Shown here one piece after another: positions 39,918 through 44,583 of a stretch of DNA of 64,000 bases (position 1 is the stretch's first letter; every line of letters begins with the position of its first letter). This stretch comes from Bacteroidota bacterium. Lineage in GTDB: Bacteria; Bacteroidota; Bacteroidia; Bacteroidales; UBA10428. The position numbers and the translations under genes are program-made. The DNA lies in the NCBI GenBank assembly GCA_003252385.1, contig QKEH01000114.1, positions 1 through 64,000 of the forward strand, written 5' to 3'. The notes under the pieces are model-generated. The model saw only the letters and a program-made list of their open reading frames with translations. It ran no database searches and was not told the DNA's origin.

Positions 39918-40601
39918 TCAGCCAAGTAGTTTAAAGCCTTTGCCATGAATATTGATTATTTCGACCGTAGGATCGTCCTTCAGGTATTTGCGTAACTTGG
40001 CGATATATACATCCATGCTTCGGGCGTTAAAGTAGTTGTCATCCACCCAAATGGTTTTTAGAGCAAAATTCCGTTCCAGTACCGAGTTCTTATTCAAACA
40101 CAACAACTTGAGCAGTTCGGTTTCCTTGGTGGTTAACTTCTGGATCCGATCTTTGAGAGTCAGAATCTGTTTTTCGGTATCGAAACGATAGCGCCCTATG
40201 GCAAATTCGTTCTGACTGCTCCCTCCAAATTTACCCGTCCGGCGCAGTATGGCTTCGATACGGTATACCAACTCTTCCATAGAAAAAGGTTTGGTAATAT
40301 AATCATCGCATCCGGCTTTAAAACCATCCAGAATATCTTCCTTTTGCGACTTGGCCGTTAAAAAAAGTATAGGAATGTCGGTATTGGTCATCCGAATTTC
40401 CTTGGCCAGGGTGTAGCCATCCTTAATGGGCATCATAATATCCAGGATGCACAAATCGTAATGCTGTTTGATAAAAGCCTTATAGGCCAATTCCCCGTTC
40501 GGAAATAAATCAGTGCTGTACTTTTTTGCAATCAGGTACTCCCTCAGGAGGCTTCCCAGATTCTCGTCGTCTTCGGCCAACAATACTTTTAATTCGTTCA
40601 T
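39918..40601 (-). CDS. rprY: OmpR-family response regulator, RprY-like
   Basis: VLLAEDDENLGSLLREYL, LDIMMPIKDGYTLA, TAKSQKEDILDGFKAGCDDYITKPFSMEELVYRIEAILRR; Trans_reg_C domain. Confidence 0.85.
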   Translation of the reverse strand: MNELKVLLAEDDENLGSLLREYLIAKKYSTDLFPNGELAYKAFIKQHYDLCILDIMMPIKDGYTLAKEIRMTNTDIPILFLTAKSQKEDILDGFKAGCDDYITKPFSMEELVYRIEAILRRTGKFGGSSQNEFAIGRYRFDTEKQILTLKDRIQKLTTKETELLKLLCLNKNSVLERNFALKTIWVDDNYFNARSMDVYIAKLRKYLKDDPTVEIINIHGKGFKLLG

Positions 40602-42100
40602 AGCTGTTTTATTAATGGCAATTTAATGAAGAAAGAGGTTCCTTCTCCCAATTCCGATTCCAGGGTTATATGCCCTTTATGCTCTTCCACAACCTTCTTC
40701 ACATAGCTCAATCCCAGTCCAAAACCTTTCACGTTATGGATATTACCGGTGGATACCCTGAAGAACTTATCGAAAATACGCCGTTGGTTTGCCCGGCTGA
40801 TTCCTATTCCATTGTCGCGAACGATGATCAGCATATCACTTTGAACGTTACGGGTCTCAATATAGATCTCCGGAGCTACAGTGGTGTATTTAACGGCATT
40901 GTCGAGCAGGTTGGAAAGAATGTTGGTTATGTGTACCGGGTCGCCCTCAATTTGATCGTTATCGGCGTGCAAGGACGGAATGAGCATGCCTTTGCGTGAG
41001 TCGACCTGCAGGGTAAAATTGGCAATGACCGATTCAATAATCTCATGAACCGAAAGAATTTCAAAGGTCAGCTTCATATCGCCCTGATCGAACTTGGCCA
41101 TCTGAAGTACCCGTTCAACCTGATAGCCTAACCGGGCACTCTCATCGGAAATAATACCGGAAATACGGCTGTAATTTTTCTGCTCGGGCGAAATACTTTT
41201 ATCGTTGAGCATTTGGGAGGCTAACGAGATGGTGGATATCGGGGTTTTCAGTTCGTGGGTCATGTTGTTCACAAAGTCGCTCTTCATTTCCGACAAGCGC
41301 TTCTGACGAATAATTACGTAGAGTGTAAAAGCAAATGTAACCAGCAGAAAAAGTGTCAGAACGGATGAAGAAACTACGATAAAACCCATGGAACTGATGA
41401 TCATACCCCGCATATTAGGGAAATACACGGTGAGGTAACTGGGTTCATCAAAGAAGTCGTCGGGAAACAGTTCGATCTGATAGTACTTCTGATGGTCTTC
41501 TTTACGAAAATTTTTCGATTTAAAAATCACCTTCTCGTTCCAGTTGGTAACCGCAAATTCGCATTCCACTTCCAAACCGTGTTCAGCAAGTGCCATTTGT
41601 AAAAAGCGATCCACCAGGTCGGGAGTAACGCGTTTTTCGATACTGCTTGAAAAATTAAACATTTTAGAAACCACGCGATCAATAAATTCCCGCCGGTTCA
41701 ATATTCGTTTTAGCATGGACACATTCTTCGATGGATGTTGCCCGAAGGGATGTCCGATACGCGAACCAAAGAAGATGTTGGTTTGAAGTTCGTATGCGGC
41801 ATCGGAAGAATAAAGCAGCGTATCCCGCTGAAATTTTGTGAGGCTGTCCGCAGCTAATTTAGCCCTCAGATATTGCGTACTATCCCACGAAGCGCCGTTC
41901 ATTTCATCAAAAATATAACTCATGGTTTCATTGCGCTGCATATTAAAGACGGCATCGGTTAAAGCTCTGCGGGCAAACTGATCGAAATGCCGTTCGCTCA
42001 CCTGGTAGGCATTGCGCATCCAGAAGAACTGCAACATAATGAGCCCTAACAGGGCAATACTCATGAATACGGTAACTAGGATGATTAACCTCTTGCTCAT
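40598..42100 (-). CDS. rprX: Sensor histidine kinase, RprX-like
   Basis: Two TM segments, H-box NNMTHELKTPISTISLAS, N/G boxes DNAVKYT, VRDNGIGIS; start MSKRLII at 42100 preferred over 42148. Confidence 0.85.
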   Translation of the reverse strand: MSKRLIILVTVFMSIALLGLIMLQFFWMRNAYQVSERHFDQFARRALTDAVFNMQRNETMSYIFDEMNGASWDSTQYLRAKLAADSLTKFQRDTLLYSSDAAYELQTNIFFGSRIGHPFGQHPSKNVSMLKRILNRREFIDRVVSKMFNFSSSIEKRVTPDLVDRFLQMALAEHGLEVECEFAVTNWNEKVIFKSKNFRKEDHQKYYQIELFPDDFFDEPSYLTVYFPNMRGMIISSMGFIVVSSSVLTLFLLVTFAFTLYVIIRQKRLSEMKSDFVNNMTHELKTPISTISLASQMLNDKSISPEQKNYSRISGIISDESARLGYQVERVLQMAKFDQGDMKLTFEILSVHEIIESVIANFTLQVDSRKGMLIPSLHADNDQIEGDPVHITNILSNLLDNAVKYTTVAPEIYIETRNVQSDMLIIVRDNGIGISRANQRRIFDKFFRVSTGNIHNVKGFGLGLSYVKKVVEEHKGHITLESELGEGTSFFIKLPLIKQL

Positions 42101-42140
42101 GGAAACAAAGATACCTATTGGAACCTTTTGATCTGTAAAC

Positions 42141-42180
42141 CTTAACAATCTTTAACAAAGCTTGAAAAAACTTAACAGAT
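42141..42180 (+). repeat. Four direct 10-bp repeats, candidate response-regulator binding array
   Basis: CTTAACAATC TTTAACAAAG CTTGAAAAAA CTTAACAGAT in exact 10-bp register. Confidence 0.7.
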
Positions 42181-42188
42181 GAATGCAC

Positions 42189-42196
42189 TACATTTG
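42189..42196 (+). promoter_or_regulatory. Bacteroidota -7 element (TACATTTG) divergent from rprX
   Basis: Matches TAnnTTTG; 8 bp spacer after the repeat array. Confidence 0.6.
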
Positions 42197-42202
42197 TTTC
42201 AT

Positions 42203-42352
42203 ACAAAACAAGCAAGGTTCAGAGACATAAAAAAATAGGAAAATTTCTTTTTCATGGTGATTAGTTAGTAAAGTTAGATTACTGATTCTTTTCATAGTTA
42301 AAAATGGGTTAGGGTTTGTGAAGGAGGTCGAAAGGCCTCTTTCTTTTTTTTA
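42203..42352 (+). ncRNA. Candidate small RNA of about 150 nt divergent from rprXY
   Basis: Promoter at 42189, no meaningful ORF, internal hairpin AGTTAGTAA-AGTTAGA-TTACTGATT (42263-42287), strong terminator at end; start coordinate approximate. Confidence 0.5.
42323..42352 (+). terminator. Rho-independent terminator of the candidate sRNA
   Basis: GAGGTC-GAAA-GGCCTC followed by TTTCTTTTTTTT. Confidence 0.8.
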
Positions 42353-42504: not shown

Positions 42505-44583
42505 CTAAAAGGAATTTACCAGCCTCATGTCAGGCTGGGGAACTTTGGACAAACTCACACGGATCGCCTCAAAAAGCTTCTCCTGAGTTAGGGGTTTGGT
42601 CACATACGCCGAACAACCGGCCTTCCGGCACTTTTGTTCATCGCCATCCAGGGCATTTGCAGTTTGGGCAATAATCGGCAAATGGGGCCACTGTGCAGAA
42701 ATATAACGGGATGCCTGATAGCCATCCAGCATCGGCATTTTAATGTCCATCAACACCAAATCTATCTCGTCATGGCTTTCCACCCGCTCAATGGCCTCAA
42801 CTCCATTGCACGCCCGGATAAGTTGTACCCCGGTTGGCTTTAATACCTCACTCAGATAGATATAGTTGCACTGATCATCTTCAGCAATGAGCAGTGTATA
42901 TCCTCGTAGGTCGGGTGTTACTGCGGATGACAGGGACGCTCCTCTCGATTCGCTGCATTGCGGCTCCGGCAAGGGGTGCAAAGGCAACACAACATTAAAA
43001 CAAGTCCCCTCACCGGGAGCCGATTCCACCCGAATGGTTCCATGCAACAATTCTACAATACTTTTGCTAATAGCCAATCCTAAACCGGCACCTGACCAAT
43101 ATCCCGGAAGATTGTTCTCAATCTGAAAATGGCTTTCGAAAATGGCGTCCTTGAACTCAGCAGGCATACCAATACCCGAATCACGTACCGTAAAAATAAC
43201 TTTTGCATCATCCAATACTTTATATCCGTATTGAATGGTGCCCCGCTCTGTGAACTTTGCCGAATTGGTTAACAGATTGAGGATAACCTGCTTCAACCGG
43301 TCTGCGTCGGTATACAATTGCAGAGTACGGAGGGAAGTGTCCACATCCACTATCAGATCTACATCCTGCATGTGGTTGTATTTTCGTAACGTTTGTTCAA
43401 TTACCGCTTTAAGATCCAATAATAGACTATAGGGATTGCAAACCCGGTATTTAACTTTCAACTTTTTACTCTCGAGCTTGGAGAAATCAATAATATCGTC
43501 AATAATATGAAGTAAATCGGCGCTGCTATTTCGAATGAGGTGGAGAAAATGATTTCGATCGTTTGTAGAGAAATTCCTCTCCAGCAACAAATCCGTAAAC
43601 CCAAGTATGGCATTCATGGGGGTACGAATCTCATGCGACATATTCGCTAAAAAGGAAGTTTTTTGTCGATCCAGGTTTTCGGCTCTTTCTTTGGCTGTTC
43701 TCAGCCGTGCCTGTACTGTATGATGTTCTGTCCAGTCTAGCACCGTAGCCAGAATACCTTCCTCCTCCAAGGTCGCTAACTCGTACCTTTGGAGGGTGGT
43801 GCGGTACTTTTTTTCTTCGGTCTTCTGCTTTAACGCGATCGTGAAACCAAGTTCTTTAGATGCGGAATGAAAGAAACCTTTAGCCCTCATTGAAATGTGA
43901 TCTATAAAAGATCCCTGATCTTCTGCTGCCCCGACCTGACTGAACGATTCGATCAAACTCATCGCTGCTGGGTTAGCATAGAGCAATTGCCCTTGTTGGG
44001 TAAAAATAAAGACAGGTAGAAGCAAGCCGGCAAACGAATCAAATTCCAAGGAAGCGGATTTGGGACAAATCGCCTCAGGTGGATGGAGGATCATTGCCTG
44101 AAACTGAATGGCCAATTCCAGATTTTCGAATTGACTATCAATAAAGGCACACACCGCATCGAATGTCGTTGAATATTGCAGGTGCAGCCTGGTAAATCGC
44201 AATACCTCTTTTTTCAGAAGTTTCAACCTGTACAAATAACCGAACAGGTTGCGCTGATTCTGCTTGAACCGATCGCTATTCTGCAGAGCGAAAGAATGAT
44301 ACGGATTTTTTATTCCAAATTCAAGGGTACTTTCGGAAACCACAAAGCTTTGGGAACGAAGCTCTTCGGCCAGGATGTTTACGATTTGAAGAACATCATC
44401 GTCGGGCAACTCCTGTATTGAAGGCCTTTCGCTGTTTTGCAATCTTTCGTCGAACCGGCAATCATTCAATTGCCGTGCAAGATTCACACTGCCAGCTGCC
44501 AGTGTACTGGCAAATTTCTCCACGCAGTCACTAATTTTCATCAGATGTAAGTTAGTTGTCCATCCTTCTTTTAGGCTGATCAA
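42505..44583 (-). CDS. Soluble hybrid histidine kinase (PAS-like region, HisKA, HATPase, REC)
   Basis: FLANMSHEIRTPMNAILGFTDLL, VRDSGIGMP, GAGLGLAISKSIVELLHG, REC LVLMDIKMPMLDGYQAS; no clear TM segment. Confidence 0.92.
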   Translation of the reverse strand: MISLKEGWTTNLHLMKISDCVEKFASTLAAGSVNLARQLNDCRFDERLQNSERPSIQELPDDDVLQIVNILAEELRSQSFVVSESTLEFGIKNPYHSFALQNSDRFKQNQRNLFGYLYRLKLLKKEVLRFTRLHLQYSTTFDAVCAFIDSQFENLELAIQFQAMILHPPEAICPKSASLEFDSFAGLLLPVFIFTQQGQLLYANPAAMSLIESFSQVGAAEDQGSFIDHISMRAKGFFHSASKELGFTIALKQKTEEKKYRTTLQRYELATLEEEGILATVLDWTEHHTVQARLRTAKERAENLDRQKTSFLANMSHEIRTPMNAILGFTDLLLERNFSTNDRNHFLHLIRNSSADLLHIIDDIIDFSKLESKKLKVKYRVCNPYSLLLDLKAVIEQTLRKYNHMQDVDLIVDVDTSLRTLQLYTDADRLKQVILNLLTNSAKFTERGTIQYGYKVLDDAKVIFTVRDSGIGMPAEFKDAIFESHFQIENNLPGYWSGAGLGLAISKSIVELLHGTIRVESAPGEGTCFNVVLPLHPLPEPQCSESRGASLSSAVTPDLRGYTLLIAEDDQCNYIYLSEVLKPTGVQLIRACNGVEAIERVESHDEIDLVLMDIKMPMLDGYQASRYISAQWPHLPIIAQTANALDGDEQKCRKAGCSAYVTKPLTQEKLFEAIRVSLSKVPQPDMRLVNSF

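Follow-up and report, generated by a model that had tools for sequence, protein, structure and literature searches.

The intergenic region upstream of rprX in the window (the whole stretch of DNA analysed, 64 kb in length) carries an array of four 10-bp repeats, whose standing as a real feature is confirmed at the sequence level, conservation being decisive, because the array is kept column by column at the rprX promoters of the family. We consider it likely that this array is the operator of the response regulator RprY, serving two divergent promoters, that of the rprXY operon and that of a candidate small RNA (sRNA) of ~150 nt, which in turn would probably block translation of envelope or secreted proteins. 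The features of the locus are as follows.

39918–40601, minus strand: rprY, OmpR-family response regulator (NCBIfam RprY; Response_reg and Trans_reg_C).
40598–42100, minus strand: rprX, sensor histidine kinase of 500 aa, ATG at 42098–42100 (profile matches; N-terminus MS(K/R)(R/K) conserved in relatives).
42106–42113, minus strand: -7 promoter box of rprX, TATCTTTG, of the Bacteroidetes TAnnTTTG type (sequence; the family has CAAAnATA at this offset).
42141–42180, plus strand: proposed RprY operator, four 10-bp half-sites, CTTAACAATC, TTTAACAAAG, CTTGAAAAAA and CTTAACAGAT (sequence, family alignment and box-model search).
42189–42196, plus strand: -7 promoter box of the candidate sRNA, TACATTTG, 8 bp downstream of unit 4 (sequence; conserved in the family alignment).
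42204–42352, plus strand: candidate sRNA, ~150 nt, its 5' end placed from the promoter and its 3' end from the terminator.
42247–42264, plus strand: seed 1, CTTTTTCATGGTGATTAG, including the FopS R1 core TTTTTCATGGT (sequence compared with the Rfam consensus GUGUUUUUCAUgGUAUUAGAU).
42282–42317, plus strand: seed 2, ACTGATTCTTTTCATAGTTAAAAATGGGTTAGGGTT, where the candidate sRNA is most conserved in congeners.
42320–42351, plus strand: strong intrinsic terminator with a 10-bp stem, a GAAA loop and T8 (terminator search and folding).
42505–44583, minus strand: hybrid histidine kinase/response regulator, convergent with the candidate sRNA, bounding the transcript and lying outside the operator.

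The four 10-mers are found exactly where the initial annotation had placed them, between the start of rprX, for which the same ATG was recovered, and a divergent promoter. Of the consensus given there, the period of 10 bp is real, but the unit is better written as YTTAACA-NNN (TGTTAAR-NNN on the rprX strand) than as CTTAACAAAN. Unit 3 (CTTGAAAAAA) is degenerate both here and in relatives, where it reads YTTG at best. A register starting at 42137/42138 scores slightly above the one starting at 42141 (43/60 versus 39 pairwise identities).

OmpR sites are built of 10-bp half-sites, and the PhoB pho box of 11-bp ones. The array resembles such operators in its head-to-tail half-sites spaced by one helical turn, in its position beside or in place of a -35/-33 element, and in having an OmpR-family regulator encoded next to it; it differs from them in the YTTAACA-NNN sequence, in the Bacteroidetes TAnnTTTG promoters and in serving two divergent promoters. 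From this geometry, RprY would be expected to bind 10-bp half-sites head-to-tail, its phosphorylated form occupying the array as two head-to-tail dimers, and one array would serve both Bacteroidetes-type promoters. On the rprX side, counting from TTTG in the -7 box, the half-sites fall at -36, -46, (-56) and -66, with the array immediately upstream of the -33 region, an arrangement that would suit autoactivation. On the sRNA side, they fall at -21, (-31), -41 and -51, and the array overlaps the position expected for the -33 element, which it may replace, and stops 8 bp short of the -7 box, a layout like that of PhoB-type activation. The rprX -7 box sits 5 nt before the ATG, as in many relatives, and the rprX mRNA would therefore be near-leaderless. 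A search of the locus for simple consensus sigma-70 promoters returned none, as expected for Bacteroidota.

As to conservation, rprX upstream regions were gathered from the genus and the family of the window, along with 80 named genome loci. Nearly every genome of the family has the array ahead of rprX at an unchanged spacing, two genomes (G014 and G018) having just two units left. In an alignment of 19 family loci, the TTAACA columns are invariant at offsets 0 and 10, a conservation that is partly selected, as the alignment was anchored on units 1 and 2. Units 3 and 4 and the promoter boxes are free of this effect: unit 3 retains only YTTG, unit 4 retains (C/G)TTAAC, the rprX -7 box (CAAAnATA, minus strand) is fixed at -35 to -28, and the divergent -7 box (TAnnTTTG) is fixed at +48 to +55, with the T at column 48 and the G at column 55 each present in 17/19. 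Head-to-tail 10-bp half-sites thus occupy a conserved position relative to the promoter, as in operators of the OmpR type. With a sequence-only box model, the rprX site is the top match in most family genomes, usually by >10 bits; in G000, the genome of the window, where no other site is of comparable strength, it scores 33.0 bits (E 2.4e-7) and the runner-up 12.6 bits, this gap being the informative part, since most family sequences were in the model. Beyond the family, a two-unit form, GTTAAnnnnnGTTAA, is found ~55 bp before the rprX ATG in ~30 further Bacteroidales lineages. Of 80 rprX promoters, 33 have a pair of TTAA at 10 bp within their proximal 120 bp, nearly always 53–57 bp before the ATG, versus 2–15 for other spacings. 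Marinilabiliaceae, for example, have GTTAATTAATGTTAAAC, and Prolixibacteraceae GTTAAATAATGTTAAGG.

The genome-wide repeat scan, from which the initial annotation had expected a regulon, revealed none, the full array being essentially unique to the rprX locus in family genomes, and a large regulon carrying the four-unit array is rejected, with essentially one array per genome. Separate occurrences of related repeats were noted as well. One is a full four-unit array of 33.7 bits, with a TAnnTTTG box, before a gene for a secreted-looking protein (MQTKSRLILL...), on a short contig without rprX (L186, G007:C794:34-73). Another is a second, distal four-unit 10-bp TTAA array in Puteibacter (L080), ~174–194 bp before the rprX ATG and near a divergent transcript. 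Among rprX upstream regions of gut Bacteroidales (among L087–L145 and L251–L268), 42/80 have two TTAA at a 19-bp spacing, mostly distal and around a promoter-like box, TTAAATTTGC.

The adjacent regulator is assigned to RprY by a receiver and a Trans_reg_C domain and by the NCBIfam equivalog model, by far its best match at 364.5 bits, just under the curated cut-off of 370. The region predicted as its recognition helix, NARSMDVYI(A/T)KLRK, hardly varies among 76 orthologues across Bacteroidales, in keeping with a single motif across the order, as judged from these sequences. The orthologous regulator of Porphyromonas gingivalis, which occurs there without RprX, is reported to bind its own promoter by EMSA (PMC3646045); no RprY binding motif is given in PMC3646045 or PMC6032018. 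The prediction that the array is an OmpR-type operator for the neighbouring RprY, with autoregulation of rprXY, is thus well supported comparatively, by domains, helix and the fixed place of the repeat across lineages, and the array is probably a deeply conserved operator of this stress-response regulator.

The array could alternatively be read by another OmpR-family regulator or a global factor, with rprX merely one of its targets. The genome is indeed rich in RprY-like regulators (68 matches, receiver-only ones included). However, the site is found at rprX across a large divergence, from the family of the window to Marinilabiliaceae- and Prolixibacteraceae-type genomes, and a widely acting factor fits poorly with an array that is essentially unique in each family genome, with a nearly invariant RprY recognition helix and with the self-binding of the P. 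gingivalis protein. We thus consider this alternative unlikely for the array at rprX. A further point in its favour comes from the promoters of the FopS sRNAs, the family that the candidate sRNA resembles.

In Bacteroides thetaiotaomicron, FopS sRNAs repress translation of a SusC-type porin and bind RbpB, and they are induced by bile salts, possibly through a regulator described as unknown (PMC11697453). A search for FopS covered 198 Bacteroidales genomes, and the upstream regions gathered gave 69 unique promoters. Pairs of TTAA occur at period 10 in 22 of these, at period 9 in 0 and at period 11 in 1, while shuffles give a mean of 2.4 such promoters and a maximum of 9. Information peaks lie at -67 to -63 and -57 to -54 relative to the TTTG of the -7 box, on about the same helical face as the rprX half-sites at -66, -56, -46 and -36. 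The pair is at the expected place in 20/69 FopS promoters of gut Bacteroidales versus 0/97 other TAnnTTTG sites of the same loci (Fisher p 3.7e-9), a count that includes paralogues within a genome and is not fully independent; the repeat is thus commoner at FopS promoters than at other promoters, and its distance is fixed at 62–63 nt. A strict motif, TTAAANNNNGTTAA, occurs 65 times in six genomes, six of these occurrences preceding a FopS copy of the same strand by 62–63 nt, and it was found not to be over-represented genome-wide in the six, the reversed-pattern control being commoner. As a separate observation, the -33 region of many FopS promoters (L218–L247) is covered by a palindrome, ATGTTTTATAACAT, which may be the site of a second regulator.

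These patterns suggest RprY as an activator of FopS, a hypothesis that is weakened because most FopS-rich genomes examined lack the repeat at rprX. Among the FopS-carrying genomes compared, the repeat is present at the rprX promoter in G185 and G080 and absent in G186, G154, G126, G041 and G081; likewise, no 10-bp pair is seen in G052 at the rprX start assumed for it. For this reason, another regulator could read the FopS sites, and the binder in several FopS-rich genomes may not be RprY. Suggestive only is the lineage of G108 and G209, whose FopS promoters are without the repeat and whose rprY, present in both, is diverged (57–58% identity); rprX was not detected in G108. Searches of the literature found neither a published link between RprY and FopS nor a regulator of FopS sRNAs. 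A wider scenario, which we put forward only tentatively and regard as somewhat doubtful, is that RprXY is an order-wide Bacteroidales envelope-stress system whose best-conserved ancestral output would be a FopS-like sRNA, multiplied in gut Bacteroides into the FopS family with retention of the RprY half-sites, so that RprY would induce FopS under bile stress, restraining SusC-type glycan porins.

Turning to the other side of the proposed RprY operator, the divergent promoter of the initial annotation is indeed present, though it leads to a FopS-like candidate sRNA with a terminator and to no protein gene: the ORF list of the window holds no substantial or plausible ORF downstream of TACATTTG. 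Four terminator-like sites were found in the region, versus 0.6 expected. The seed CTGATTCTTTTCATAGGT is conserved in the window and six congeners, which also share, almost unchanged, the stretch CTGATTCTTTTCATAG(G/T)T...GGTTAGGGT ahead of the terminator, while the sequence between the divergent promoter and the conserved seed stretch diverges among congeners. The terminator stems differ in sequence among relatives and retain their pairing, and similar terminated RNAs divergent to rprX are found in Perlabentimonas, Puteibacter, Sunxiuqinia and one unclassified MAG. When folded in full, the candidate showed no excess stability (z -1.2), and RNAalifold run on an sRNA alignment made with MAFFT found no structure, the terminators having been misaligned. 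The divergent unit is on this evidence a candidate for a previously unrecognised small regulatory RNA. In G016, G020 and L092, the sRNA is replaced by a gene for a secreted protein. These secreted proteins, divergent across the same box (L057 in G016, L192 in G020, and L092), are of 213–284 aa, a Pfam search with one of them gave no match, and the arrangement is reminiscent of cpxP beside cpxRA.

The candidate is FopS-like, and it is not filed as a FopS member because its score is below the family threshold: the match to Rfam FopS (RF04319) in the window is of 24.1 bits (E 0.31), the gathering threshold being 56 bits. Matches at the rprX loci of relatives, of 23.6–31.8 bits, are all under the gathering score as well, and in four genomes (G005, G008, G012 and G002) the rprX-linked RNA is the best FopS match genome-wide. 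The sequence TTTTTCATGGTGATTAG at 42248–42264 is close to the FopS seed GTGTTTTTCATGGTATTAGAT. Shared with the FopS/GibS sRNAs of Bacteroides (RF04319; PMC11697453) are the TTTTTCATGGT seed core, the AGGTT/GGGTTA block, and a short single-stranded region that leads into an intrinsic terminator, with no ORF. The candidate differs in its length (~150 nt versus 65–70 nt), in its two seeds, the terminator following the second and not R1 directly, and in its single copy beside rprX. A protein of the RRM_1 class, to which RbpB belongs, is also encoded in the genome. Away from rprX, a further terminated RNA of FopS-like type carries the seed GTAGTTCTTTTCATAGATTAGGTTTTAGG (L146, G001:C53; L175, G006:C144). 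Other FopS-like matches in the family are rejected as RprY targets, many resembling chance matches or antisense gene starts.

It is also conceivable that no divergent sRNA is made, the terminator stopping stray transcription and the seed-like block being a decayed gene start (ATGAAAAGAATCAG on the other strand). On the minus strand, the block resembles a Bacteroidetes 5' UTR plus ATGAAAAGAATC, Bacteroidetes gene starts commonly yield antisense FopS look-alikes, several of the family matches among them, and the FopS score is sub-threshold. However, while the 18-nt seed is conserved, no ORF is conserved on the minus strand, both the way the terminator faces and the conserved TAnnTTTG promoter indicate transcription of the plus strand, and pairing with translation start regions is exactly how FopS-type sRNAs act (PMC11697453). 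We regard the decayed gene start as quite improbable and favour the sRNA, which would end at the intrinsic terminator and bear one or two seeds antisense to ...ATGAAAA... translation starts, and would probably dampen translation of ATGAAAA-type mRNAs for envelope or secreted proteins in the manner of FopS/GibS. Searches of the genome for antisense targets (exact 13-mer, extended pattern and duplex energy) gave none that was convincing or had extended complementarity, the two weak candidates starting MKRI....

The single-sequence statistical evidence for the array is moderate. It is the top four-unit period-10 match across the window, and its period-10 score is reached by 0/500 dinucleotide shuffles of the 250-bp intergenic region and, when the 800-bp region is shuffled, by 0.3%. 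The window has a single copy of the core YTTAACANNNYTTAACA, where 0.13 are expected with <=1 mismatch, and the 3.9 Mb genome has two exact copies. Apart from the array, an exact two-unit match is seen at just one place in that genome, between two protein genes (L001, G000:C51:3541-3557). Tandem Repeats Finder reported nothing on the array because its units are too diverged. That the array is chance A+T-rich repetition with no function is hardly credible, for although the sequence is of a low-complexity type, with 12% of shuffles of the intergenic region reaching the raw score when periods 7 to 14 are all permitted, its position and spacing are conserved across the family and the order.

Response regulators that control sRNAs lowering envelope protein synthesis are represented by OmpR with MicF, OmrA and OmrB, and by CiaR with the csRNAs. 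The locus is alike in having a two-component system placed to control an sRNA, and unlike in its Bacteroidota host and in an sRNA divergent to the regulator's own operon. Overall, we infer a two-component operator common to the regulator operon and a divergent sRNA; the FopS link is an interesting hypothesis. The locus supplies a concrete proposed RprY operator, YTTAACA repeated every 10 bp, and sets a conserved two-component system beside a candidate sRNA; the sensing of membrane stress may in this way be coupled to the post-transcriptional control of nutrient porins in Bacteroidales, gut Bacteroides included, a link that can be tested.
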